From: Bacteroidetes bacterium GWF2_35_48 | GTDB lineage: Bacteria > Bacteroidota > Bacteroidia > Bacteroidales > GWF2-35-48 | Reading direction: 5' to 3' | DNA length: 40,127 nucleotides | NCBI GenBank assembly: GCA_001769125.1 | Contig: MEOG01000037.1 | Location: 1-40,127 of the forward strand | Shown here: piece after piece, positions 19,518 to 32,368 of the stretch | Layout of the letters: each line of letters opens with the position of its first letter | Numbering within the stretch: position 1 is the stretch's first letter | Translations under genes and position numbers: made by a program | The notes under the pieces: model-generated | What the model saw: the letters and a program-made list of their open reading frames with translations, nothing else | What the model was told of the DNA's origin: nothing | Database searches by the model: none

Positions 19518-21632
19518 TTACGATATTTTTTTGATAACGTAGTAACCATAGTTTTTTTCTGGGTATTTCTTCTCACGTGCAAATGAAAGCATTTTAAGTG
19601 CTTTGCCTACATTGTTTGTATTGAGTTTTATTTTATTTTCTGTTTGCTCTGCTATGTAAAGAAGTATGTCAGTAGCAGACATAAAACAATCGTTGTTCTC
19701 TTTGGTTGCTGGCATCAGATATTTATGTATTAATTCAAATTCCGATGTTGTTATATGAAATTGACGGTTGTATTCTTCATTTTCTTTTATTTCGTCACCA
19801 GTAAGATCGCAGATAAAATTTGTTTTAAATAAGTGGTAAGCTTGCGCCCAGACATTATCAATATTAATTTTTTCTTTATATGACCAGTCTATTTTTTCTA
19901 TAACAAAACACAACCAACGAACTGAGCCTGATTCATCATTTAAAAACTCTGCCTGATTTGTTGAACCGATAAATGATGCCCGACGTGGAATGATTGAATT
20001 TTTGCGGTCGTAGGGCAAACGGTCATTTATCTTGTCTTTTGAAAACAGCGATTTCAGCGAATTAATTTCAATTTTGGAGAGCGTTGAAAGTTCATCAAGA
20101 TTGATTAAAAGGTTTGTTGTTAGCAGAATCCGGCTGTCTTTATCAATACTTAAATTTTCTGCAATGTAATTTGAAAGCTTTGGAGGACACAAAAAACGGC
20201 AAAAAGTGGATTTACCTGAATTTTGTTTGTCGTGTACAAGGATGAAAGCCTGTTTATTAAAATAACTGTCAACCATTGCACATTTTACTGTACGAACTAA
20301 CCATTTTTTGAAATGATTATCGAACCTGTCGCAAATATCATGTTTTAAATTTACAAAAGAAGCTAACTTTTGAATAAAATCAGTTTTGCCATCCCACGCC
20401 GGAAGTGATTGAAAATATTGTGTAAAAGGGTTGTAAAACGGGACTAAGTCGGATTTAAGAAAAGCCATAAGGTTGTTGAGCGAAAAGGTTAAACCATCGA
20501 GACACATTTTTATAAAAATGTTGTTTTCGTTGAGCGGTTTGTAATCTTCCTGGTCTTTTTCTTTGTATTCAAATTCAGTAGAAACGCTGTTGTAGCGAAT
20601 ATCGAAGTGTTCAGCTAAATAATCCCTGACTAAATGAAATTTGTTAGTAGCGTGTTTCTTTTTGCGTGGTTTTTCTGGCGTGGTGGTGCCCGTGATTTCT
20701 TCGGTGGAGGGTGTAAGATTAGATGGCTCATTGAGACGTGCCAGTGGCACGTCTTTACATGGTTTAGGGGTTCTGTAAATGCTGTGATTTTCATAAGTAC
20801 CTTTGCCAATGTCAATGCCGTATGATTTTGCAATAAAGAAAAATGTTTTTGAGGTGATGCCTGAATTCTTTGATTTCAGGCAGTGGTCGAATTGTTTATC
20901 ACACTCGACAAAGTCGTATTTTACAAAGAATTTACTTATCCTGTGAAAATAATCACGGGCTGCTGAGCCGATGGCATCAATAAGGGCAAAACAGATTTTT
21001 ACCCAATCCTGATAAGAATTAGTTATGTCAAGTTGGTGTTGTTCGATTTGCTGAACTACTTTTTTTATATCGTCTTCTATCATGTGAGCATGAGTTTTAA
21101 AGGTTTCTGAATTTTCATTAATATAAATATCAGGGTCGTAAGAAAAAAAGCAAAGGCGTGTAATATCCTTGCCTGACGGGTCAACAGGTACACTTAAAAC
21201 AGATTCGTAAAATTCTTTAACCTGGTTATATGCTTCTAAATGGTGAAGTATTGAAGAATCCACACGAACAAGGATTTTTAGGCCACTACCGGAAGGGCTT
21301 GTAAAAGTGGTGTAAGTGTAAGGAATGTTTGAGGTTTGAAGTTTGATAGTTTGAAGAATGGAGGGTTCGAGCTTATCAATGTCAAGAATAATAAGGCTGC
21401 TGTAATCCTTTATTAAATGGAGCTTGCGACCACCTTCAAAAATACCGCATGGAGAAAAAGCAGGTAATGATTTTTTCTGCTTTTTGTATTCTTTTATTTT
21501 GCCTTCAGCAATAAGTTCACGCAATTGCAGTACTCGGCTTTTATACCTGCCATCCCTGATTTGTTCAAGGATAGCAGATATAGCCAGATTTTCGGTTACT
21601 TCATTGAAGTTTTTGAAAAGGGAGACTTGCAT
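19518..21632 (-). CDS. Primase-helicase of an integrative element (BT4734-like / PriCT / VirE)
   Basis: A 704-residue protein with three parts. Residues 50-175 are the BT4734-like primase domain: LIILDIDKL (D84, D86), the SPSGSGLKILV loop and KDITRLCFFSYDP. Residues about 195-275 are a PriCT-like helical domain. Residues about 400-640 are the VirE/DUF3874-type helicase: Walker A in LVHDKQNSGKST (G473, K474, S475) and Walker B in LLINLDEL. This protein class replicates Bacteroidota integrative and phage-like elements. The HTH gene lies 31 bases upstream on the same strand. Iteron-like repeats follow its stop codon, making this the likely replication module. Confidence 0.85.
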   Translation of the reverse strand: MQVSLFKNFNEVTENLAISAILEQIRDGRYKSRVLQLRELIAEGKIKEYKKQKKSLPAFSPCGIFEGGRKLHLIKDYSSLIILDIDKLEPSILQTIKLQTSNIPYTYTTFTSPSGSGLKILVRVDSSILHHLEAYNQVKEFYESVLSVPVDPSGKDITRLCFFSYDPDIYINENSETFKTHAHMIEDDIKKVVQQIEQHQLDITNSYQDWVKICFALIDAIGSAARDYFHRISKFFVKYDFVECDKQFDHCLKSKNSGITSKTFFFIAKSYGIDIGKGTYENHSIYRTPKPCKDVPLARLNEPSNLTPSTEEITGTTTPEKPRKKKHATNKFHLVRDYLAEHFDIRYNSVSTEFEYKEKDQEDYKPLNENNIFIKMCLDGLTFSLNNLMAFLKSDLVPFYNPFTQYFQSLPAWDGKTDFIQKLASFVNLKHDICDRFDNHFKKWLVRTVKCAMVDSYFNKQAFILVHDKQNSGKSTFCRFLCPPKLSNYIAENLSIDKDSRILLTTNLLINLDELSTLSKIEINSLKSLFSKDKINDRLPYDRKNSIIPRRASFIGSTNQAEFLNDESGSVRWLCFVIEKIDWSYKEKINIDNVWAQAYHLFKTNFICDLTGDEIKENEEYNRQFHITTSEFELIHKYLMPATKENNDCFMSATDILLYIAEQTENKIKLNTNNVGKALKMLSFAREKKYPEKNYGYYVIKKIS

Positions 21633-21663
21633 AATTTATTACACATTACAATTGATAAAAAAA

Positions 21664-21963
21664 TTAAATCATCGGATTGATTTTTTTGAAAGCTTTGCGT
21701 ACATGCTTACGCAAATGGTCTTCAATATCTGATGCGCAGAAATAAATTTTACCGCTTACCTGAGAAAAGCTTAATATGCCTTCATCACGATAAAACTGTA
21801 ATGTACGTTTAGATACTTTAAGAAGCGTGCAGGTTTCTTCTATGTCGAGCCATGCCTCAGATAAGGGTTGTTGTTTTGCAATGTGTTTTACACAATTTTC
21901 AAGACTATCAATTTTATTGATGATCTGCTGAAAAGCTTCGGATTGAATTGTTATTACTTCCAT
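21664..21963 (-). CDS. Helix-turn-helix protein (excisionase/MerR-like)
   Basis: A 99-residue protein. Residues about 38-85 form a helix-turn-helix of the HTH_17/excisionase type: WLDIEETCTLLKVSKRTLQFYRDEGILSF, then a wing (KIYFCASDIEDHL). The N-terminal part (MEVITIQSEAFQQIINKI, coiled) is the usual start of this small family in Bacteroidota mobile elements. It probably binds the element's ends or promoters, assisting excision or controlling the primase gene that begins 31 bases downstream. The 470-base space upstream, with its GTTCCCT repeats, is the obvious place for it to bind. Confidence 0.8.
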   Translation of the reverse strand: MEVITIQSEAFQQIINKIDSLENCVKHIAKQQPLSEAWLDIEETCTLLKVSKRTLQFYRDEGILSFSQVSGKIYFCASDIEDHLRKHVRKAFKKINPMI

Positions 21964-22130
21964 GATTTAAAACTTTTTTTAATAGTTAATATTCCGTTAT
22001 TGCCGTTCATCAGAACCTGACCCCTTCATACAAAAAAGGAAATCAGAAATTAGACAGCAGAAAAAAAAGTTTCGTGTTGCAACAGAAAACTATTTGCAAA
22101 GAAAAATCATGAAGCTGGGTGACCAATGAA

Positions 22131-22166
22131 AAAAAAAGTTCCCTGAGGGGTCAGGGAACTTTTTTT
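22131..22166. terminator. Perfect hairpin, terminator-like in both directions
   Basis: AAAAAAAGTTCCCTGA at 22131-22146 and its exact reverse complement at 22151-22166 enclose a GGGG loop: a 16-bp perfect stem flanked by A and T runs, as in a bidirectional intrinsic terminator. It lies downstream of the 383-residue gene and upstream of the HTH gene. The stem contains the GTTCCCT motif repeated elsewhere in this gap, so it might also be a protein-binding site. Confidence 0.6.
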
Positions 22167-22245
22167 CTGGGGAAAAAATTACGGAATTTTGTATATTATT
22201 ATTATTCAATAACATACAAAGCTTGCAGCAAATATTATGCCAACA

Positions 22246-22390
22246 GGAGTTCCCTGAAGGTACTAAAAAGTTCCCGGGAACTTTTTTTATGTTAATTGCC
22301 TGATAATAAAAAAATAAGCGTTTTGCCCCAAACCGAGTTCCCTCAAAACTTTACCGAGTTCCCTCAAAAATGAGACTGAGTTCCCTCAAA
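22246..22390. repeat. GAGTTCCCT repeats (iteron-like)
   Basis: Three tandem units ACCGAGTTCCCTCAAAA (third unit ACTGAG) start at 22332, 22353 and 22375, spaced 21 and 22 bases, two helical turns apart. A further GGAGTTCCCTGA lies near 22247, and a perfect 22-bp palindrome centred on GTTCCCGGGAAC spans 22265-22286. The same core is in the hairpin at 22131-22166 and, inverted (AAGGGAACTC), at 23868-23877. Regular phasing and the location inside an integrative element suggest iterons or operator sites. No gene occupies 21964-22434. Confidence 0.6.
22265..22286. terminator. 22-bp perfect palindrome, terminator or operator
   Basis: AAAAAGTTCCCGGGAACTTTTT is a perfect palindrome with the T run extended to seven bases. 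With no loop it is a poor RNA hairpin unless the central bases open, so it could equally be a dimer-binding site for an element regulator. Confidence 0.45.
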
Positions 22391-22434
22391 AAAATATATG
22401 CAAAATGGAGCAAAAAGATAAAAAAAACGAAGTG

Positions 22435-23586
22435 CTATTTTTTAATTTCCGCAGAATCACTAAAATTATTGATGTCAAATTTATTTGGATCATCTGGATG
22501 TGGACGTTTTTTAAAGTTGGAGGGTTTTAGAACTGTTCGTATTGATGAAGGATTTAGCGGATTTCCGTCTTTATCTGTAAAAAAATAATTAAGCAAAGCT
22601 GTTAACTCCGAATAATCGCAATTGAGCCACGGACTGCCGTTTTCAGCCTGTTTTCTTATAAATTGAAAAATTACATCAAGAAAAATATTTGAGTTACAAT
22701 TAAGTTGAAACTTGCCTTTGAGTTGCTGTAAAATTTTTATTTCCGGCGGAATTGATTCAGCTACAGGGATGCTTTCTTTTGATTGTTTTTGTGTGTATGG
22801 GGCAATAACATCATTAACGACAGTTCCAGCCATACAGGTATTTAAAAATTCATATAATAGTGGTCTTTGCTTATAAAGCAAAGGGTGTTTTAATAATGAT
22901 GGTGTTTCCTGATGAAGTTCTAAAAGAAGTTCTTCTTCTGACAACAGGGGTTCATCCAAAAAAGGTTTGAAAAATTCAGAATAAAAAATTATTGCCCGGA
23001 TAATGAAAAGATTCAAAATATAAATAATGTAAATATCTGATTGGTGAACTACATCGCTATTTTTACTACTGATTGAACGATATAATAAACGGGAGTCATG
23101 AAATAATTTACGGGCAAACTGTATATTTCGTAAAGCATTTATCTGAATTATCTCTTTATTTGAAGCAGCAGCAAGCATTTTTTCAGCCCGAATTTTGACC
23201 CTTTCAAATTCGTCTGCAAAAAAATCAAGAAAAAAACGTTCTCTGTCATCGGCTGGACTCGGGAGTAGCATTTCTTCATATAATTGATAAACCTTCAAAG
23301 GACAAATAACTGCTTGATGGGAGTTTGTTTCACTGTTATAGATAAATTTCAAGTCAATATCAGAAGTACTGTAATAGCCATAATCTGTAAGATCAATCAA
23401 AGATATTTTTCGAGAAACTTCCTCCTTTGTAGACTCTGAAATAATGATATGAGTATTTGCAGAACGAACAAGCTGTAGTGATGATTTTATGTTTTTATCA
23501 GCTAATGAAACCGGAAGAAAAGAACCTCTTACAAACTGTGAAAACACAGAAAAATTAACGGTCTTATGGACTTCAAAAGATGGCAT
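22435..23586 (-). CDS. Mobile-element protein of unknown function
   Basis: The 383 residues are mainly helical, with no signal peptide. A hydrophobic helix (SDIYIIYILNLFIIRAIIFYSEFF) lies in the middle. The C-terminal segment (LNCDYSELTALLNYFF, then NPLNPSSIRTVLKPSNFKKRPHP) resembles the end of proteins that often accompany integrases in Bacteroidota elements, distantly like RteC C-termini; I would not assign RteC function. It sits between the integrase and the HTH gene on the same strand. It may be a regulator or accessory factor for excision or transfer. The stop lies close to the GAGTTCCCT repeats. Confidence 0.7.
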   Translation of the reverse strand: MPSFEVHKTVNFSVFSQFVRGSFLPVSLADKNIKSSLQLVRSANTHIIISESTKEEVSRKISLIDLTDYGYYSTSDIDLKFIYNSETNSHQAVICPLKVYQLYEEMLLPSPADDRERFFLDFFADEFERVKIRAEKMLAAASNKEIIQINALRNIQFARKLFHDSRLLYRSISSKNSDVVHQSDIYIIYILNLFIIRAIIFYSEFFKPFLDEPLLSEEELLLELHQETPSLLKHPLLYKQRPLLYEFLNTCMAGTVVNDVIAPYTQKQSKESIPVAESIPPEIKILQQLKGKFQLNCNSNIFLDVIFQFIRKQAENGSPWLNCDYSELTALLNYFFTDKDGNPLNPSSIRTVLKPSNFKKRPHPDDPNKFDINNFSDSAEIKK

Positions 23587-23902
23587 ATACTTAAAAATAA
23601 TATCAAACTAAAATAAAACAGGCACAGACAACCAAGCAGTATAGCCAGATAATTTAAAGCAAACAAAAAGTATCATTAAACGTAATTGGTTTTATACCGT
23701 TTTTTTTCTAAAAAAAGCACATTAGAAGTAACGAAATGCAAGCAAAAAAAAGTTTATGAATGCGTAATAGTGAATAAAAATAAATTAATTAAAGTTTATC
23801 TGATTGATTATGAACAAAGAAAGAATCATCAATATATTGCATTGTTGAAAAACAAAATATATTCATTAAGGGAACTCTTTTATGAAGCATACATTAATAT
23901 AA
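23587..23902. other. Gap between integrase and element protein gene
   Basis: A 316-base A-rich stretch. It contains one inverted GAGTTCCCT copy (23868-23877). A plus-strand open frame runs through it into the integrase gene, but it has only a TTG start and no recognisable domain. I see no convincing gene, and no clear TAnnTTTG promoter for the 383-residue gene. Confidence 0.5.
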
Positions 23903-25108
23903 TTAATCAAAAACTTCCATTGCCTTATCTAAATCAGCATTCACAATTTTAGCATAAATTTGTGTGGTGCGGATTGAGTTATGCCCCATAAGCTTTGATA
24001 CATACTCAATTCTCATTCCTTTGCGAAGGGCACGGGTAGCCCAAGTATGGCGGCTTGTGTGAAAATGAATATGTTTTTCTATTTTTGCATCTTTAGCAAG
24101 GTCTTTTAAATCGGTGTTTGTGTAGGATGTTATTGAAGATATACGGGTATGAAGAATTTTAGGGTCTTTTAGGTTGTCCGACTTATCAAGAAAAGGAAAA
24201 ATAAAATCATCTTTCTTCGCATCTTTTGACTTATACAATTCAATAATTGCAAGTGCTTTTTGTGGAAGCTTTACAGAAATCATAGAGCCAGTTTTTTGAG
24301 TGCTTAACAAAATATGATTACCAGTGAAATTTTCCCATTTAAGCTGAATTAAATCAGATATACGAATACCTCCTGCATGACAGGCAAAAAGGTACATATT
24401 GCGGTGATGATATTTCATTGAGCCTATTTCTAAAGCAAGATTTTCAAGGGCTTCAATTTCTTCTTCAGTAAGAAAAACTTTTTCTGTTGATTGCCATTTG
24501 ATTTTATGTTTTAAAAATGGGTTCTTTTCTATTGCAATGACGTCATCCCTTACCGCTTCATGGATAATGCGCATAATTGCTTTTAAATTAGCATGAACTG
24601 TATTGTTTGCATTTTTGAGGACGTTGCGTAAATATTCTTCGTATTGTTTTAAGAAGTGAACAGTCATTTGATCAAAAGTAAAACTTTCTTCCTCTACAAA
24701 ATTTTTCATTTTTGCCAGTACAGCCTTGAATCTATTATATGTACCTATTTTTCCCTTTTCTTCGTAGTTTTTGATGAACTTGTCAGCGAATGCAAAGAAC
24801 TTAACCCCACTGGTTCCATTGATAGCGTGTTTTAATGTTTTTGGAGCAGAGTATTTAGATTCAACTTCTTTTTTTAAAACAACATCCTTGGCTTCCACTA
24901 ATTTATGCTCAAGAAAATTTTTTATTCTTTCAGAGTTAGGACATGAGGAACGAATTTCTTTTTTGTTTTCATTCCAGTGCTGAGGCTTAATATAAACGCC
25001 TGTAGATATAAATGATGAATGATCCCCTTTAGTAATTCTTATATAAATAGGTACTTCACCTTGTTTATTTTGCTTATTTTTACGCAGAATTAATTTTACT
25101 GTAGCCAT
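23903..25108 (-). CDS. Tyrosine recombinase (integrase)
   Basis: A 401-residue site-specific integrase of the Bacteroidetes type. The N-terminal arm-binding domain (VKLILRKNKQNKQGEVPIYIR) is followed by a SAM-like core-binding domain (about 105-190) and the catalytic domain. The catalytic residues are all present: R249 (GGIRISDL), K272 (TQKTGS), H350-x-x-R353 (HTSRHTW), H376 (GHNS) and Y385 (IYAKI). It should cut and rejoin attachment sites to insert or excise the element. The tRNA-like end and terminator lie about 170 bases beyond its start, the usual layout for an integrase at the edge of its element. A promoter box and paired GGTACATGT repeats precede it. Confidence 0.93.
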   Translation of the reverse strand: MATVKLILRKNKQNKQGEVPIYIRITKGDHSSFISTGVYIKPQHWNENKKEIRSSCPNSERIKNFLEHKLVEAKDVVLKKEVESKYSAPKTLKHAINGTSGVKFFAFADKFIKNYEEKGKIGTYNRFKAVLAKMKNFVEEESFTFDQMTVHFLKQYEEYLRNVLKNANNTVHANLKAIMRIIHEAVRDDVIAIEKNPFLKHKIKWQSTEKVFLTEEEIEALENLALEIGSMKYHHRNMYLFACHAGGIRISDLIQLKWENFTGNHILLSTQKTGSMISVKLPQKALAIIELYKSKDAKKDDFIFPFLDKSDNLKDPKILHTRISSITSYTNTDLKDLAKDAKIEKHIHFHTSRHTWATRALRKGMRIEYVSKLMGHNSIRTTQIYAKIVNADLDKAMEVFD

Positions 25109-25124
25109 TTGCTTTCCTTTTCTA

Positions 25125-25170
25125 CAAAGGTAAATATAAAATTAATATTGGTACATGTATGGGTACATGT
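25125..25170 (-). promoter_or_regulatory. Integrase promoter with two GGTACATGT operator-like repeats
   Basis: The minus strand reads TACCTTTG (TAnnTTTG) at 25132-25125, 17 bases before the integrase start. Two direct copies of GGTACATGT (25150-25158 and 25162-25170, 12 bases apart, each containing the palindrome ACATGT) cover the position where a -33 box would be. A protein bound there would block the promoter. The small HTH protein or the integrase itself could be the binder. Confidence 0.45.
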
Positions 25171-25278
25171 TTTTTGAAATTATTTATCAACAAAGTGCTT
25201 TTTATACTATTATTAAAAATTATAATATACTGATAAAGTTGCAATTAAAAAAAATAGAAAGCAAATTGAAGAATTTTG

Positions 25279-25299
25279 TCGAATCCCAGCGAGATCACA
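25279..25299 (+). other. tRNA 3'-end-like sequence, candidate right attachment site
   Basis: GTCGAATCCCAGCGAGATCA looks like the T-loop (TTCGAATCC) and acceptor end of a tRNA; the first T-loop base and the 5' half are missing. A terminator hairpin follows 12 bases later, as after a real tRNA gene, and an integrase starts 170 bases to the left. Tyrosine integrases often use tRNA 3' ends, rebuilding the tRNA at one junction and leaving a displaced 3' fragment at the other; here the displaced piece keeps the native terminator. An intact tRNA with the same 3' end should then lie beyond the left edge of the window. I did not find it inside. Confidence 0.45.
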
Positions 25300-25310
25300 G
25301 AGTAAAAAAG

Positions 25311-25345
25311 AAAACCCCCGAAAACAGTACGTTTTCGGGGGTTTT
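25311..25345 (+). terminator. Strong intrinsic terminator
   Basis: AAAACCCCCGAAAAC (25311-25325) pairs perfectly with GTTTTCGGGGGTTTT (25331-25345) around the loop AGTAC: a 15-bp stem ending in a T run, with A residues on the other side. It can stop transcription from both sides: the putative tRNA on the plus strand and the RhuM gene on the minus strand. Confidence 0.8.
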
Positions 25346-25435
25346 TAATTTCTTTAAAAACAGTTTTGTGTCCGGTTTCAATATTATATTAAGTTTTTTT
25401 AAAGTTTAACCTAACATATGAATCAGCATCTGCAG

Positions 25436-26491
25436 TTATTTTTCTTTAAGTATTTTGGAATCTTTGTTTTCACTTAGTCCTTTAAGTTCCTTATCGAAAT
25501 CAGATTCCATTAATTTAGCCTGAATTATCCGGTATTTTTTGAATTCTGCTTCTGCTAAAGCTGCTGCCACTTCATGGGAAACGGATTCCTGATGTTTTAA
25601 TATGGCTTCTTCATTGAATTTTAAGAATGCATCTAATTTTTTAACCCAGTCTTTCATATACATTACAACACCTTTTCGTGCCTGTATTTCTGCATAATCC
25701 AGATACATGGAAACAATCCGGTTTAACCCATCCAATTCTTTTTCATTGAGATAATTTTTTGCAATGCTGATATCCGTTTTCCGAATGCTTCCCTTTGGTG
25801 CATTTTTCCATGTTGCTAAGCCAATATTTTCTTTTGAACTATCTGCCCTTGCAGCAATTATCTCCGCTGCCGTATGACCTGTAATTGCCCAATGAAGCTT
25901 GTTTTGAACAGTTGCGAAAAAATCTTTTGTGATTTGAGTATTTATATCATAATCTGCACTACATTGTGAATAGATATCTGTGATTTTTTGATAAAAACGC
26001 CTTTCACTGGAACGGATATCACGAATACGTGCCAATTGTTCTTCGAAATAATCTTTTCCGAAAATGTTGTTTGGATTTTTCAGACGGTCATCATCCATTG
26101 TGAAACCCTTAATGATGTATTCTTTCAGACGCTCGGTTGCCCATATTCTGAAATGTGTTGCCTGAGTGCTGTTTACACGGTAACCCACAGAAATAATTGC
26201 ATCGAGATTATGATATTCGATTTGCCGGGAAACTGAACGAAAACCTTCATTTTGAACTTGTGCAATTTTTGCACAAGTTGCCTCCTTGTGCAATTCTCCT
26301 TCGTTATAAATATTTATCAAATGTTTTGTAATCACGCTTCGATCCACATCAAATAATTCAGCCATTTTTTGCTGTGTGAGCCAGATGGTTTCGTTTTGTA
26401 AATAAATTTCAACCTTTACTTTACCATTTGGTGTGGTATAAAGTAGTATTTCGTTGAAACCTTCTTTTGCTGGTGTTAGTTTCTTTTTCAT
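25436..26491 (-). CDS. RhuM family protein
   Basis: The 351 residues show the Virulence_RhuM pattern throughout: TIWLTQQKMAELFDVDRSVITKHLINIY (a helix-turn-helix near the N-terminus), YHNLDAIISVGYRVNSTQATHFRIWAT, ERLKEYIIKGFTMDDDRLK, and a C-terminal helical part (FFATVQNKLHWAITGHTAAEII, LDYAEIQARKG). It is close to full length. The family was named from a Salmonella pathogenicity island gene; its biochemical role is not established, though the HTH suggests DNA binding and members are common in mobile islands. It lies alone, with the terminator at 25311-25345 downstream. Confidence 0.9.
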   Translation of the reverse strand: MKKKLTPAKEGFNEILLYTTPNGKVKVEIYLQNETIWLTQQKMAELFDVDRSVITKHLINIYNEGELHKEATCAKIAQVQNEGFRSVSRQIEYHNLDAIISVGYRVNSTQATHFRIWATERLKEYIIKGFTMDDDRLKNPNNIFGKDYFEEQLARIRDIRSSERRFYQKITDIYSQCSADYDINTQITKDFFATVQNKLHWAITGHTAAEIIAARADSSKENIGLATWKNAPKGSIRKTDISIAKNYLNEKELDGLNRIVSMYLDYAEIQARKGVVMYMKDWVKKLDAFLKFNEEAILKHQESVSHEVAAALAEAEFKKYRIIQAKLMESDFDKELKGLSENKDSKILKEK

Positions 26492-26539
26492 AAGCTAAAA
26501 AATATCAAAAAATAAATTTAGATTGATTATAAATTTATC

Positions 26540-27139
26540 TTATTTACCCTCCCCTTCTTCCCTCTTCTTTTGGATATGATCCATAAGCCTTTTGAAATAA
26601 TCTTCGATTGTTTCTTCCTGTTTTTTTTCAAAGTGCTTAATCCCATAATAAACCATGTCCAGCATTTGATTGTAACGGGAGAATGTCTCAAGTAGAATTT
26701 TTTCATCGCCGGTTTCCCAGTATTCTCCTTCATCTATGACAGAAAAATCTAAAAGATATTTTTTTGAAATATAACGCAGCACCTGGATTACGAGTATATG
26801 CGCATCAGGACCTGCAAACTGTGTTTTTGTTGAAACTCCTTTAAGCATGGCTATTTCTTCTGGTTTGGTAGATTTACCAAAAGCGCTGAATGCAATCAGC
26901 CCGCATAATTTCCCTGTAGATAAAAAAGTGAAGCATACCGGCTCACATTTTGGCGGAGAAAAACACACACCGTATAATTTATCATCATGCTTCGTGTTAA
27001 AAGATATTTCAGCAAATTGAGTTTCAAAAATATGATAACTCCATTGATAAGTTTTCGCAATATCAACCGTTTCGTTAATCATTTCCTGTAATGAAGCGTT
27101 AGGATTAAAACTGCCGCTGTAGTGAATAGATAATCCCAT
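26540..27139 (-). CDS. Uncharacterised conserved protein
   Basis: The 199-residue protein starts MGLSIHYSGSFNPNASLQEMI, a start I associate with an uncharacterised family in Bacteroidota. No signal peptide or membrane segment is visible. The centre holds KLYGVCFSPPKCEPVCFTF and STKTQFAGPDAHILVIQVLRYI; the end is a charged helix (FEKKQEETIEDYFKRL). No catalytic motif is evident. It begins 15 bases after the broken metallophosphoesterase gene, so the two were probably one operon. Confidence 0.75.
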   Translation of the reverse strand: MGLSIHYSGSFNPNASLQEMINETVDIAKTYQWSYHIFETQFAEISFNTKHDDKLYGVCFSPPKCEPVCFTFLSTGKLCGLIAFSAFGKSTKPEEIAMLKGVSTKTQFAGPDAHILVIQVLRYISKKYLLDFSVIDEGEYWETGDEKILLETFSRYNQMLDMVYYGIKHFEKKQEETIEDYFKRLMDHIQKKREEGEGK

Positions 27140-27154
27140 AAAATTAATTTTTGT

Positions 27155-27751
27155 TTATTCGATTTCTTTTTCTTCCTGTCCCGAAAGTGCTACCGGAACA
27201 TTCTGCATTTCAATAATTATCTCTTGTGCGGCGTATGGATAAAAATTATTTGTATCTACTCCGACGTCTTTGCTACGACCCACACTGGGCAGATTGCCAT
27301 GTGAGTGACCGTACAAATGTATGCTGCCCTTAAACCAGCCATGTCATGTACGCATAGCATAATGGCAAAGGACAAAACGGATATCATTAACCAAAATTTC
27401 AGCGCCAAATTCAAAAACCTTTGTAAACATTGATTGAAGCTTTGCCCGTTTACGTATCTCTTTATCGTGGTTGCCAAGCGCAATATAAAGATTTTTGCAA
27501 TTAATCCTGTTTCGAAACCATTCTACATTCCTGTCGCCCCATGCAAAATCACCCAAATGAAACAGAATATCATTTTCTGAAACACGCTCATTGATATTGT
27601 TTACTAGTGTGTCATTCATTTGTTCGATGGTTTCAAAATTCCGATAGCCCTGTTTCCACTTCGATACAGAGGTGCCCACTATATTTGAGTGATGATAATG
27701 CGTATCGGCAGTAAAAAAAATATTCTGATCGGTGAATTTTAGGGTTTGCAT
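27155..27751 (-). pseudogene. Metallophosphoesterase with one in-frame TGA
   Basis: The frame from ATG 27751 encodes a calcineurin-like phosphoesterase: FFTADTHYHHSNI (D, H metal ligands), LFHLGDFAWG (GD motif), YIALGNHDKE (GNHD), VLCHYAMRT. A TGA then occurs at 27344-27346. In the same frame the protein continues as HGWFKGSIHLYGHSHGNL (the GHSH motif) and ends at a TAA at 27155. Relatives usually read RTWHG here, so one TGG-to-TGA change explains the stop; no frameshift is needed. Without the GHSH part the 135-residue product should be inactive. TGA is a true stop elsewhere in the window. Sequencing error is possible. Confidence 0.8.
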
Positions 27752-27933
27752 TGTGTATTTTATAATAGCATATTGATTTTGTTAAATGCTCTTTTATGAA
27801 AAAATATTAAAGAAAACAAGTTCAATTATTATCATTTGTTTGGAATTTCATTCCCAGTAACTTTACAAATATATTCAGAAATTTCCTTTTCACGACCACT
27901 GTATCTGGGTTAATTTTAAAGAGTGAAAAAAGA

Positions 27934-27967
27934 AAAACGCCGGAAACTCTTGTGTTTTCGGCGTTTT
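27934..27967 (-). terminator. Intrinsic terminator hairpin
   Basis: AAAACGCCGGAAAC (27934-27947) pairs with GTTTTCGGCGTTTT (27954-27967) around TCTTGT, with one G-T pair and T/A runs on both sides. It follows the small minus-strand frame ending at 27976 and precedes the metallophosphoesterase gene, so it separates two transcription units. Confidence 0.7.
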
Positions 27968-27975
27968 ACCTCTTT

Positions 27976-28098
27976 TTACATTTTATAAACATCATATTCA
28001 AATTTACTATTATAGAACAGTTTGCTGATTTCTATCAAAATCCCACTCATTCCAAAACCTGTGATGGTATGATAAGCTATACTTTTTTTAAACAGCAT
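27976..28098 (-). CDS. Possible 40-residue small protein or gene remnant
   Basis: A minus-strand frame starts with ATG at 28098 and ends at TAA 9 bases before the terminator hairpin. It encodes 40 residues with a short hydrophobic part (HTITGFGMSGILIEISKLFY). I do not recognise it. The position directly against a terminator is the main reason to list it. It could be the C-terminal remnant of a lost gene. The rest of the 27752-28162 gap holds the terminator and no other structure I can name. Confidence 0.25.
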   Translation of the reverse strand: MLFKKSIAYHTITGFGMSGILIEISKLFYNSKFEYDVYKM

Positions 28099-28162
28099 AT
28101 TTTTTATATATCAAATTGTTGTTTGTCTTCTTGTTTGTAACCGTTTTGGTAACCTTTCCTGT

Positions 28163-28501
28163 TCACATATAATTCCGGCTTCTTTTTGTCCCGAATGTTT
28201 TAAGCTGGTACTCTGCTTTCAGTTTAAAAGTGGGTAGTCTTTTTCCATTTATATATATGGCAGTATAAATATCCATCCAAACAATATGATAACCACAATG
28301 TTCCGTAAATACACACACTTCGTTAAATTCAGGTGCTGGTATTACAAATGCGTAATTGTACTCACATCTTGAGTCGTCCTCATATCTTACAATGACTTTG
28401 CTCGTGTCAAAATCACCGCATTCGAGGTAATCTCTTTTTTCGTGTTTCAGGTAAGCCTTCAGCTTTTTTTTCCAGCGTTCTGGTAAATCATCTTTTCTCA
28501 T
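28163..28501 (-). CDS. Uncharacterised small protein
   Basis: The 112 residues start MRKDDLPERWKKKLKAYL, a basic helix, followed by a compact aromatic and cysteine-containing middle (YNYAFVIPAPEFNEVCVFTEHCGYHIVWMDIYTAIYINGKRL). No signal peptide or known motif is visible; the pattern suggests a small soluble alpha/beta domain. It is divergent from the WYL regulator gene, whose promoter lies about 65-90 bases away, so the regulator may once have controlled it. Confidence 0.65.
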   Translation of the reverse strand: MRKDDLPERWKKKLKAYLKHEKRDYLECGDFDTSKVIVRYEDDSRCEYNYAFVIPAPEFNEVCVFTEHCGYHIVWMDIYTAIYINGKRLPTFKLKAEYQLKTFGTKRSRNYM

Positions 28502-28564
28502 ATTGTTAAAGTATATTATGTTTTATATTCATTCATCAAAAAAAGAATAGTAAACCGCAGTGAA

Positions 28565-28594
28565 TTTGCGTTTTCATTTTTTTTTTTAATTTTG
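28565..28594 (+). promoter_or_regulatory. Promoter of the WYL regulator gene
   Basis: TTTG at 28565-28568 and TAATTTTG at 28587-28594, separated by 18 bases, match the Bacteroidota -33/-7 promoter (TTTG, about 19 bases, TAnnTTTG) well. The start codon chosen at 28625 gives a leader near 24 bases. Confidence 0.6.
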
Positions 28595-28624
28595 CTTTAT
28601 TGTTCCAGTAAAATATGCTCATTT

Positions 28625-29668
28625 ATGCCTTTTAACAAAGAAGCTTCAATCCGGTACATGATAATAGACAGTTGTCTTACCGACCGCTACAAGCCTTTTC
28701 CTTCTATTTTTGATTTGATGGAAAAATGCGAAGTCAGGCTGGGGAAACAATTTTCTGTTTCCACAATACAGAAAGACATCAAAGCCATGAAAGAAGATGA
28801 GGAATTGGGATATATGGCTCCAATCCGTTATAGCCGCAGCGAAGATGGTTACTATTATGCAGATGAAAACTACACGATTAAAAAAGTTCCTTTGAACAGT
28901 GATGAGATTGAATCGTTGGAGTTTGCCGCCGGTATTCTATAGCAGTACAAAGGCATCAAGGTAAATGAAACATTCAATCAGGCTGTCAATAAAGTGTTGA
29001 CTTCTCTAAAACTGAAGCGTATGGAAAAAGAGAGTCAGTCGGTTCTTATTCCAGACCTGGCACCTGCATCAAAAGGCTTTGAACATATTGATACACTACT
29101 TCATTGTATTTGCAATGAAATTCCTGTTTCTTTTGCTCATTACTCATACAACGAACAGCGCTTTTGTGCTCATATAGTACATCCATATCTGCTAAAAGAG
29201 CATCGTAACAGGTGGTACGTATTTGGTTATTCGGAACTACATAAAGAAGTGCGGCAGTTTGGACTTGACAGGTTAAATGATATTATTTTAGTGGAAAGAA
29301 AATTTTATCGGCAACAGGGCATTGACACAGCAAAATTATACAACCATGCAATTGGTGTTTTCCTGAGTGATGAAAAAAAATTAACTACTGTTGAATTAAT
29401 AATTGATCCCCTTTATGCCAATTTTGTAAAAACGCAGCCACTCCATCCGAGTCAGGAAATCGTTAAGTACGGCGAGCGAGGCTCTGTTACTATTCGTATT
29501 AAAGTTTATCCTTCACGCGAACTTGTTTCTTTAATTTTATCTTTTGGCTCGGGTGTCATTATTAAATCTCCCGGTTGGTTGCGTAGCGATATCATGAAAG
29601 AGCTTAAAATAGCTTTCGAAATAAATAAACATTTAGAATCAGAAATGAAACAATTCTATGGCAAATAA
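28625..29668 (+). pseudogene. WYL-domain transcriptional regulator with one in-frame TAG
   Basis: The frame starting at ATG 28625 (MPFNKEASIRYMIIDSCL, preferred over an ATG at 28592 because homologues begin here) encodes a winged-helix domain, then LNSDEIESLEFAAGIL. A TAG at 28940-28942 interrupts it, after which the same frame continues QYKGIKVNETFNQAVNKVL into the WYL domain (PVSFAHYSYNEQRFCAHIVHPYLLKEHRNRWYVFGY) and the C-terminal extension (GSVTIRIKVYPSRELVSLILSFG). CAG-to-TAG explains the break, the usual text being LQQYKG. WYL regulators bind nucleic-acid ligands and often control defence or accessory genes. Split as it is, the regulator should be dead unless the stop is read through. 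Confidence 0.82.
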
Positions 29669-30089
29669 ATTGAAAAAAAACAAAGCTGTACTCATTAATA
29701 ATCCTGAATTTGAAACAGGTCACAACAAACTATTTTTGCTTAGGGTTATTCTGCACCCCGAATTTACTAAAGTAGATTTTGGTTATCAGGCACCTTATTA
29801 TTACGAACGTGGTGGGTGGGTTCGTATTTCTCCCGAAACATTTATTCGGGACAGGAAAAATGATAATTCCTATAAAATGACACGTGCTGAAGGGATTTGC
29901 CTTGCTCCTGAAAAATTTGAATTCAAAAGCAATCAGGACTTTTTATATTTTTCTATTTTTTTCGTGCCCATTCCTAATAATATTTCTCATATAGACTTCA
30001 TCGAAGAAGAGCCTGATAATGGTACAAATTTTAATTTTTATAACATTGTCCTTAATAATCCGGCAAGCAGGGTTACTATTTTATCCTGA
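29658..30089 (+). CDS. Uncharacterised protein co-transcribed with the WYL regulator
   Basis: The 143 residues overlap the end of the WYL frame by 11 bases, which indicates translational coupling. After a basic start (MANKLKKNKAVLIN), the sequence is rich in beta strands and aromatics (LFLLRVILHPEFTKVDFGYQAPYYYERGGWVRISPETFIRD, DFLYFSIFFVPIPNNI). No signal peptide or recognised motif is present. It is probably a cytoplasmic partner or target of the regulator; its function is unknown. Confidence 0.7.
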   Translation: MANKLKKNKAVLINNPEFETGHNKLFLLRVILHPEFTKVDFGYQAPYYYERGGWVRISPETFIRDRKNDNSYKMTRAEGICLAPEKFEFKSNQDFLYFSIFFVPIPNNISHIDFIEEEPDNGTNFNFYNIVLNNPASRVTILS

Positions 30090-30176
30090 TTTTATATTTT
30101 TATTAAACGCATATTCATTGCGTTTTGCTTTTTTTTGCTGTATTATAAATATTTCTGGGAAAAATAATTCAGATAA

Positions 30177-30574
30177 CTAACATTTCTCACTTGGTAATTA
30201 AGCTAGTAAAATAGGATTACTTACTGTTCTATATATTATATTTTGAAACTTTTTTCTTGATAAAAAAGTTACCAAACCAGCCTGCCCTTGTTGCAACTGC
30301 GGGGGCTGGCAGGAAATCAAGGCCAAACAATGCTCCTCCCCGCCCTTTAAAAACTCAAGGGACATTAGACAAAGAGAGCCTGAGACAAACATTGGGGTCT
30401 CTTATACACAAGCATCGGTTTAGTTTGTCTCAGCCAAATGTCAAGCCACTTTGTCATGTCCCTAATCGTTTTTAAATTCCCTCCATTTCATTGCCCGCTG
30501 TTTGGCCAACCCATCGCACAGGCATCTGTTTACAAAAATTCTATAATTCGATTATTTGAAGTGAGAAATGTTAG
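30177..30574. mobile_element. 398-bp MITE-like element with 16-bp terminal inverted repeats
   Basis: CTAACATTTCTCACTT at 30177-30192 is matched exactly by its reverse complement at 30559-30574. Both ends are flanked by the same 8 bases, TCAGATAA (30169-30176 and 30575-30582), a target-site duplication. The interior has no real gene; it is richer in G and C than its surroundings and holds a short hairpin (AACTTTTTT with AAAAAAGTT, 30247-30270) and CCCGCCCT-like text seen in dispersed Bacteroidota repeats. Size, ends and duplication fit a non-autonomous element moved by a transposase encoded elsewhere. Confidence 0.75.
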
Positions 30575-30730
30575 TCAGATAAGAAAAAGATTTTCCCTAA
30601 AATAAAAAAAACAGCAATTATGATGCCTACGAATGTTAAAAGCAAACCATTACGGCAAGATTGATGATTTGAAATAGAATTGGGCAGGGTGGATTTTCGA
30701 ATATTATTACCCGTGAAACACTTTTAAAGG

Positions 30731-31870
30731 CTATACCTTTAACAAAATTTCTGCTGCTTTTTTCAGAATACTATCGGGTCGTGCTAGGCAAAAACGTAAA
30801 AATTTATACTTAGTAATTTCATGAAAAAATGGCGAAACAGGAATACTCGACACTCCGTATTCTTTTGTTAATCTGATTGCAAAATCGGTATCTTTTTCTT
30901 TACTGATTGCGGAATAATCAAGCAATTGAAAAAATGAACCGCCACTAGGTAAAACCCGAAATTTAGAGTTTTCTACAATGTTTGTGAATATTTTTTTCTT
31001 TTTCAGATAAAATTCGCCGAGTGAAACAGGATTATAGTTTTTATAATATTCTGCCAATGCAAATTGTATCGGTGTATTTAATGATGTAACGATGAACTGG
31101 TGTAGTTTTCGTATCTCATCCATCAATTCTTTTTTTGCAAGAATATATCCCATTTCCCATCCTGACATACTATTTAATTCGCCAAAAGAAGAAATGATAA
31201 TGCTTCGGTCTAGCAAGTTTTTGTAATGAAGAATGCTTAACTGATTATTTTTGTCGAAAATAATGTGCCGCAGTGCTTCATCGCATAAAAGAATAATTTT
31301 CGTTCCCTTTGTAAGTTTGTATAGCTTTTCATAATCAGATGAAGTGAAAACAGCTCCCGAAGGGTTATTCGGTATATTTATAATGATGATTTTTGTTCTT
31401 GCATTAATAACTTTTTGAACTTCGTCCCAATCAATAGTAAAATCAGGCTGCTTAAGCTGTATAAATACAGGCTTTCCACCATTCAGCTTTACTAAAGGAG
31501 TATAATTACTGTATGCAGGTTCGAAAATAATTACTTCGTCTTCTTCATCAACAAGGGCTGCAATGCAGGAATAGATTGCTTCCGTAACTCCGGCAGAAAT
31601 TGTTATTTCATTTTCAGGATTATATTCTGCCTCATATTGCTTGAGAATATATTCATTAAGCGTATTTCTGAGAGGCAATATTCCTTCTGGCGGCGTATAT
31701 TGGTTGTAACCTTTTTTCATGTGAAAAGCAGCAATGTCAAAAAAATCAATCGCGCAATCGAAAAAAGGAAATCCTGTTGATAAATCTATAGCGTTCTCTT
31801 CATAGGCAATTTTTGACATTGCTGAAAAAATAGAGAGGTTGCTGTTTGAAAGTTTTGATTTGTATTGCAT
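30731..31870 (-). CDS. Class I/II aminotransferase-fold protein lacking the catalytic lysine
   Basis: A fold-type I PLP-enzyme-like protein. I choose the ATG at 31870 (MQYKSKLS) rather than 31915 because a promoter box lies at 31890-31897. It keeps [41 protein letters not shown] (NPSG), CDEA (the Asp that contacts the pyridine) and FLRFCLARP (substrate-binding Arg). At the Schiff-base site, where relatives read SFGKxxxxTGWxxGY, it reads [16 protein letters not shown]: the lysine is glutamate, and the tyrosine of DEVYEHI is leucine (DEALRHI). It should not be a working transaminase. It could be a pseudoenzyme or an enzyme with another chemistry. The nearest normal family is YbdL/methionine aminotransferase-like. 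Confidence 0.82.
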
Positions 31871-31889
31871 TTTTTTTATTTCAGGATGA

Positions 31890-31917
31890 CAAAAATATAA
31901 AATAATACATCCCACAA
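31890..31917 (-). promoter_or_regulatory. Promoter of the aminotransferase-like gene
   Basis: On the minus strand TTG (31917-31915) is followed after 17 bases by TATTTTTG (31897-31890), matching TTG/TAnnTTTG. It is 20 bases from the ATG at 31870, and the longer start at 31915 would lie inside it. Confidence 0.5.
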
Positions 31918-32079: not shown

Positions 32080-32268
32080 AGTCCACAGTCTACAGTCTAC
32101 AGTCTACAGTCTAAAGTCTAAAGTCTACAGTCTAAAGTCTACAGTCTACAGTCTACAGTCTACAGTCTACAGTCTACAGTCTACAGTCTACAGTCTACAG
32201 TCTAAAGTCTACAGTCTACAGTCTACAGTCTACAGTCTAAAGTCTAAAGCCTAAAGTCTAAAGTCTAC
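32080..32268. repeat. Tandem heptamer array AGTCTAC/AGTCTAA, 27 units
   Basis: Exactly 27 consecutive 7-base units (189 bases) with the consensus AGTCTAC; variants are AGTCTAA, one AGTCCAC and one AGCCTAA. Seven is not a multiple of three, so an open frame passes through with a 7-residue period (VYSLQST); it is not a gene. Such heptamer arrays are common in Bacteroidota spacers and change length easily. Confidence 0.9.
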
Positions 32269-32277
32269 AGTATGACT

Positions 32278-32368
32278 GACTGCCGATTGCCGACTGCCGA
32301 TTGCCGACTGCCGATTGCCGACTACCGACTACCGACTGCCGACTGCCGACTGCCGACTTACGACTTCC
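32278..32368. repeat. Second tandem heptamer array GACTGCC/GATTGCC, 13 units
   Basis: Thirteen 7-base units directly after the first array, of a different family: GACTGCC alternating with GATTGCC, then GACTACC, GACTGCC and ending GACTTAC, GACTTCC. The alternation gives a 14-base higher-order period in the first half. It ends about 20 bases before the transporter gene's stop codon. Confidence 0.85.

Follow-up and report, generated by a model that had tools for sequence, protein, structure and literature searches.

The gene studied here lies on the minus strand of a 40,127-nucleotide stretch of the genome of Bacteroidetes bacterium GWF2_35_48 (hereafter the window), and encodes an aminotransferase-fold protein in which the Schiff-base lysine, the cofactor tyrosine and the GW[KR] basic residue of YbdL-type enzymes are all three missing. 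We consider it probable that this protein is a maintained pseudoenzyme, drawn from a branch of YbdL-type proteins in which the lysine was lost repeatedly and a second, non-catalytic function had been gained earlier. A maintained pseudoenzyme had been proposed in the first-pass annotation of this DNA, and it is still the best reading, backed by the loss of the lysine, an intact fold and 28 further distinct lysine-less relatives, although the closest relatives read keep the lysine.

Fold and cofactor pocket of the encoded protein

The minus-strand frame opens with ATG and has zero internal stops, in line with the complete frame described in the first-pass annotation, and the plus strand of the same interval is stop-rich (Table 1). 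The protein matches the Pfam family Aminotran_1_2 and narrowly passes the cut-off of the NCBIfam methionine aminotransferase model PRK09082 (424.2 bits vs 420), and its best solved relative is YbdL of E. coli (PDB 1u08). An AlphaFold model computed from 44 aligned sequences reached a high mean confidence, and superposed closely on 1u08 (Foldseek TM 0.96–0.97; VIA Z 53.1, rmsd 1.5 over 378 residues, with 37% identity by structure alignment). Both sequence and predicted fold thus place the protein among YbdL-type members, and the structure prediction agrees with the earlier claim that the remaining fold motifs are kept. A lysine-less relative encoded next to recO (L278) was modeled with similar confidence (pLDDT 93.6). 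According to these models the fold is intact, although a common fold says nothing of function.

Table 1. Positions of the gene and of its cofactor-site codons in the window
Feature	Position	Strand	Basis
Lysine-less YbdL-type methionine aminotransferase-fold protein, 379 aa	30731..31870, stop codon included	-	Translation; Pfam PF00155 2.3e-47; PRK09082; model pLDDT 91.3
Possible GTG-started N-terminal extension, 15 aa, probably unused	31871..31915	-	Inferred from where relatives align
Tyr58, kept	31697..31699	-	Alignment and codon read
Asn169 of NNPSG, kept	31364..31366	-	Alignment and codon read
Asp197, kept	31280..31282	-	Alignment and codon read
Leu200, codon CTG, cofactor tyrosine position of DEVYE	31271..31273	-	Alignment and codon read
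Glu231, codon GAA, Schiff-base lysine position	31178..31180	-	Alignment and codon read
Glu239, codon GAA, GW[KR] position	31154..31156	-	Alignment and codon read
Arg359, kept, substrate-carboxylate arginine position	30794..30796	-	Codon read; 26 of the 29 lysine-less rows have it

Alignment to YbdL places Glu231 at the Schiff-base lysine and Leu200 at the cofactor tyrosine, the site and its DEALRH motif pairing without a gap with SSFGKTYHMTGWKVGY and DEVYEH of 1u08. Together with 131 lysine-bearing relatives, this confirms both substitutions reported in the first-pass annotation, to which the alignment adds a third, namely Glu239 at the lysine of GWK. The same annotation had argued that several neighboring positions changed together and that a single sequencing error was not responsible, and this holds: sequencing error or frameshift is ruled out by the three separate codons that differ inside an open frame, as well as by lysine-less relatives that carry other residues in independent assemblies. 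In the canonical part of the family tree the lysine is present without exception (117 rows), so that its loss here goes beyond chance. A substitute lysine was sought by alignment, and none stands at the Schiff-base site; the nearest lysines on the C-terminal side of the chain are K246 and K247, and the position of K246 is occupied by proline in canonical copies.

For the chemical roles of these positions (Tyr58, Asn169, Asp197, Leu200, Glu231, Glu239 and Arg359) we assume that those of aspartate aminotransferase carry over. We take the GW[KR] position to be on the phosphate side, that of Asp197 to pair with the pyridine nitrogen in active aminotransferases, and that of Arg359 to be the substrate-carboxylate arginine. 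Without the lysine, the protein should form no internal aldimine with pyridoxal phosphate (PLP) and would not complete an ordinary transaminase cycle, and a pocket with Leu200 and Glu239 should hold PLP poorly. Ordinary transamination is therefore very unlikely, and the protein is presumably without catalysis. Judging from the residues retained, weak or altered cofactor chemistry is possible, since Tyr58, Asn169, Asp197 and Arg359 are all kept, and a carboxylate ligand may still be bound through the kept arginine side of the pocket.

Recurrent loss of the lysine among Bacteroidales relatives

An ordinary copy of the family (L002), with its lysine and 46% identical to the window protein, is encoded in the same genome, along with two more distant aminotransferases that both have the lysine. 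Across 12 other class-I aminotransferase frames (11 of them further paralogues, the other a repeat reading of family row L129), the lysine is present in all. In the one same-genus genome compared, which is 90% complete, the best match was a canonical copy at 45% identity with none closer, and no counterpart of the window copy was found there. Among the order and class matches listed, no relative exceeded 54% identity to the window protein. Whether homologues share the glutamate, a point raised in the first-pass annotation, receives a divided answer: the closest relatives read (52–54% identity) keep the lysine, and glutamate does recur in a group of Marinilabiliaceae, probably through a separate change on the tree. 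The combination of Glu231, Leu200 and Glu239 was seen in no homologue found, and single-sequence scans of genomic and viral contigs with six exact 8-residue patterns, whose reach is limited to close relatives, detected no close relative carrying it.

Loss of the lysine is not confined to the window protein. A survey of 393 Bacteroidales genomes, 142 of which had a family match at E 1e-60 and for each of which at most four candidates were scored, yielded 145 distinct family rows, and the lysine was missing in 14 of them (E in 5, I in 3, P in 3, R in 2 and V in 1), including one row (L029) that is only about 28% identical and hence unsurely aligned at the site. A second scan of named genomes covered 80 loci, a biased sample because the query was itself lysine-less and 80 of 114 relatives were kept; 61 of these loci had K, 18 did not (E in 10, P in 4, and H, A, D and T), and one ended before the site. 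As three of the 18 repeat survey rows, 15 are new, which brings the total to 29 distinct lysine-less rows, the window protein included, with E in 12, P in 7, I in 3, R in 2, and V, H, A, D and T in one each. Carriers include Labilibacter, Plebeiobacterium, Carboxylicivirga, Natronoflexus, Alkalitalea and Breznakibacter, two genomes named “Marinilabiliaceae bacterium”, one Prolixibacteraceae metagenome-assembled genome (MAG) and other Bacteroidia MAGs. No loss was found in a sample of 59 family members taken from other orders in the class, all aligning K; the sample covers 59 genomes out of 329 that had a match, 30 members were picked from low-scoring best hits, a second and weak match in one genome (G413) was left out, and one member (L272) is cut short or shifted right after the lysine site.

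The number of changes at the lysine site was estimated from quick, unrooted tree searches in which changes were counted and the ancestral lysine was deduced from the family. In a tree of the 145 survey rows built without the catalytic columns (with a long-branch warning for L029, L166, L028 and L086), the 117 canonical rows all have K and the 14 losses all fall among the remaining 28 rows, with eight changes required and five of them forced by starred branches. A mixture-model tree of 64 rows (long-branch warning for L166 and L028) required six changes, five of them forced. It recovered a 10-row Marinilabiliaceae group that is all E (support 99, starred), a 9-row group with P, H, D or T (support 89), a two-row group with I and V (support 99, starred) and a lone R (L141), as well as a starred 7-row group comprising the window copy, L011 (I), L027 (R) and four lysine rows. 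The five rows nearest to the window copy by tree path all have the lysine, and its own end branch is long (0.82 and 0.78 in the two trees). On these sequence comparisons, the glutamate of the window protein and that of the Marinilabiliaceae look like separate events.

Lysine-less members also differ in how far the pocket has changed: when seven sites were scored, L011 had lost the lysine alone, the window protein three sites, and L028, L138 and others most of them. Across the 29 lysine-less rows the cofactor-pocket sites have been freed, with T96 kept in 5, Y200 in 5, Y58 in 13, D197 in 15, N169 in 20, and K or R at position 239 in 5. Other sites persist in the same rows, namely W148 in 29, G94 in 28, S228 in 28, R254 in 27 and R359 in 26. 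Separately, a glycine stands at the substrate-carboxylate arginine position in one group (L069, L139, L079 and L140), which includes copies with and without the lysine.

Gene neighborhoods in the family and in the window

Next to canonical copies there is often a carbon-nitrogen hydrolase gene (PF00795, interpreted here as omega-amidase-like) and a gene taken, by eye, to be pgk, and divergent copies often have rdgB-porZ-recO upstream and a GH3-family gene downstream. Within 1.3 kb, recO was found for 9 of 14 lysine-less rows vs 9 of 131 lysine rows (Fisher 1.2e-6, related rows being treated as independent), and the hydrolase for 0 of 14 vs 67 of 131 (Fisher 1.0e-4, kinship again ignored). Because the shorter flank is under 300 bases in 6 of the 145 rows and under 1000 in 19, neighbors are undercounted. 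The named set displayed the same trend, with recO in the available flank of 17 of 18 lysine-less loci vs 0 of 61 lysine loci, and the hydrolase in the flank of 38 of 61 lysine loci, although one lysine-less locus (L308) ran against it with a carbon-nitrogen hydrolase match in its flank. Neither neighbor is an absolute mark: L308 rules this out for the hydrolase, and recO adjoins nine lysine copies, of which L068, L087 and L126 lie in the canonical part of the tree, and does not adjoin the window copy. YbdL is a homologue of the KAT enzymes, which act together with omega-amidase according to the portion of the source consulted (PMC9309667), and the absence of a hydrolase neighbor would fit a departure from the KAT/omega-amidase reaction.

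The window copy has no recO, GH3, porZ or hydrolase gene beside it, and comparison with 68 other loci revealed no neighbor family in common. Its genome has a single recO match, on another contig (C39, vs C37 for the lysine-less gene), so that the gene is not linked to recO. Its surroundings instead include a sodium/bile-acid symporter homologue, a DAHP synthase-chorismate mutase and MetH.

Several features of these loci were recorded in their own right. A GH3-family gene follows the divergent aminotransferase in L184, L185, L129, L163, L168 and L171, in three of them away from the recO locus, and the two genes could form a functional pair. Between the symporter gene and the lysine-less gene, positions 32080–32358 of the window hold two heptamer arrays (27.4 copies of AGTCTAC and 11.6 of GACTGCC); a DNA search with this region returned 52 matches in its own genome, itself included, and the other listed matches fall in and around the arrays. 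Just downstream of the gene (30176–30575) is an inverted repeat, resembling a small mobile element, whose 17-nt arms match perfectly and lie 366 nt apart. The adjoining region (19518–30089) encodes a WYL/WCX regulator together with mobile-element-like genes (VapE-like/primase domains, a tyrosine integrase and the RhuM family). A search of the window revealed no tRNA.

Probable maintenance of the gene and comparison with known systems

Related lysine-less pairs are under purifying selection. Fifteen such pairs were compared, and the five with dS below 1.5 gave dN/dS of 0.030–0.065, three of these coming from the trio L343, L345 and L349; four others fell at 0.072–0.187 with dS of about 2, and six were saturated. 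For reference, six of 13 lysine pairs had dS below 1.5 and gave dN/dS of 0.037–0.116. The window copy itself keeps 78 of the 106 near-invariant sites, defined by conservation of 95% or more across the 67 lysine rows that have the hydrolase neighbor. In simulations of drift, the frame was still open in 8.4% of runs when 10% of codons had changed, in 0.65% at 20% and in 0.05% at 26%, figures that apply only if the changes at near-invariant sites arose by drift after inactivation. The kept sites and the simulation suggest that the window copy is probably under purifying selection as well.

These results bear directly on the reading of the gene as a recently inactivated duplicate that an ordinary copy has freed to decay, and that is drifting toward a pseudogene in which a stop codon has yet to arise. 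The presence of the canonical copy L002 in the same genome, the long end branch, the lack of conserved neighbors and the failure to find a counterpart in the one same-genus genome all point this way. On the other side stand the full-length frame, the confident fold model, the canonical sites kept, the small share of simulated frames that stay open at 10% or 20% changed codons, and purifying selection in the related lysine-less pairs, and on balance we regard such decay as unlikely. More specifically, the simulation and the site conservation disfavor an old pseudogene; a recent inactivation is possible if the changes at near-invariant sites came earlier, under selection.

Retained function could also take the form of catalysis. 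By analogy with the histidine of ColD and E1, Glu231 might act as an acid/base on non-covalently bound PMP or PLP, a prospect to which the kept Tyr58, Asn169, Asp197 and Arg359, the precedent of a lysine-to-histidine change in an aminotransferase-fold enzyme (described in the part of PMC8987622 available to us), and the status of Glu as the commonest replacement (12 of 29) lend some weight. Yet Tyr200 and the GW-K position are lost as well, the latter to a second Glu, the replacements in lysine-less relatives include P, I, V and A, and none of the nine neighbors scanned looked like a sugar-pathway gene, so that a cofactor-dependent enzyme of changed chemistry appears improbable. We give still less credence to an inactive subunit that would form a heterodimer with, or regulate, the intact paralogue, much as LCB1 does with LCB2. 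Both copies are present in the window genome, and LCB1, which lacks the PLP lysine, provides a precedent (PMC3794620, seen in part), but the paralogues are only 46% identical, and among 14 lysine-less genomes a second family member (E 1e-60, with at most four candidates scored per genome) was found only in the window genome. Scoring of all candidates in that genome and in four others (G011, G025, G030 and G056) agreed, the second member being again limited to the window genome. Since the 13 other lysine-less genomes display no second member at E 1e-60, a heterodimer role is unlikely to be general.

For the maintained pseudoenzyme that we favor, the simplest account of repeated loss within one branch is that the YbdL branch would already have gained a second, non-catalytic function before the losses. 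This function was probably the binding of a partner, or of an amino- or keto-acid ligand held by the carboxylate-arginine side of the pocket, which is kept, and selection on the cofactor site would then have lapsed, lineage by lineage. A broader version can be put forward only tentatively: the Bacteroidales branch whose genes often sit just downstream of porZ-recO may have an older role that needs no catalysis, such as sensing a ligand or binding a partner in connection with genes of the envelope or of DNA repair, as a result of which catalysis was discarded at least five times, the window gene being one case outside the recO locus. If such an older function is real, these losses (at least five) amount to a natural replicate experiment in the conversion of enzymes to pseudoenzymes, and if the non-catalytic role is shared, the stages from L011 through the window protein to L028 and L138 make the order of the steps testable.

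There are also consequences for annotation. Besides the window copy, two other lysine-less proteins pass the PRK09082 cut-off of 420 bits (L278, 451.5 bits; L011, 487.4 bits), out of seven examined, one of which was a partial sequence. Pipelines that transfer names may therefore call such proteins methionine aminotransferases, and, because the cut-off is passed without the lysine, metabolic models could credit them with a transaminase activity that is probably absent.

Compared with a YbdL-type methionine aminotransferase (1u08, PRK09082), the window protein has the same whole fold and length, but the Schiff-base lysine is gone from it, as are the cofactor tyrosine and the lysine of GW-K. Among the open-access matches listed, we found no paper on lysine-less YbdL homologues; PLP-fold proteins without the lysine are already known, as far as the excerpts consulted describe them (LCB1, ColD and Rv3778c), and it is the recurrent YbdL-type set that was not found in the open-access literature searched. 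LCB1/SPTLC1 of serine palmitoyltransferase is a PLP-fold subunit without the PLP lysine that the cell needs (PMC3794620, in part); it belongs to a different family, and partners an active subunit that most lysine-less genomes here seem to lack. The sugar 3-dehydratases ColD and E1 have an aminotransferase fold and are catalytic with histidine in place of the lysine, as reported in the sections of PMC8987622 consulted; here the site holds Glu in the window protein and His in one of 29 lysine-less rows, with other cofactor contacts lost, and lysine-replaced catalysis of the ColD kind fits poorly because P, I, V and A occur at the site. Rv3778c of Mycobacterium tuberculosis, a PLP-fold protein without the lysine, was judged likely non-catalytic (PMC12910592, extract); unlike the set described here, it is distantly related to cysteine desulfurases and is one protein in one genome. 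For the evolutionary pattern only, the fungal Ssd1/Dis3L2 pseudonucleases offer a model despite their unrelated fold and kingdom: their active sites were lost repeatedly and independently, and an older second function has been proposed for them in the text available to us (PMC8097288).
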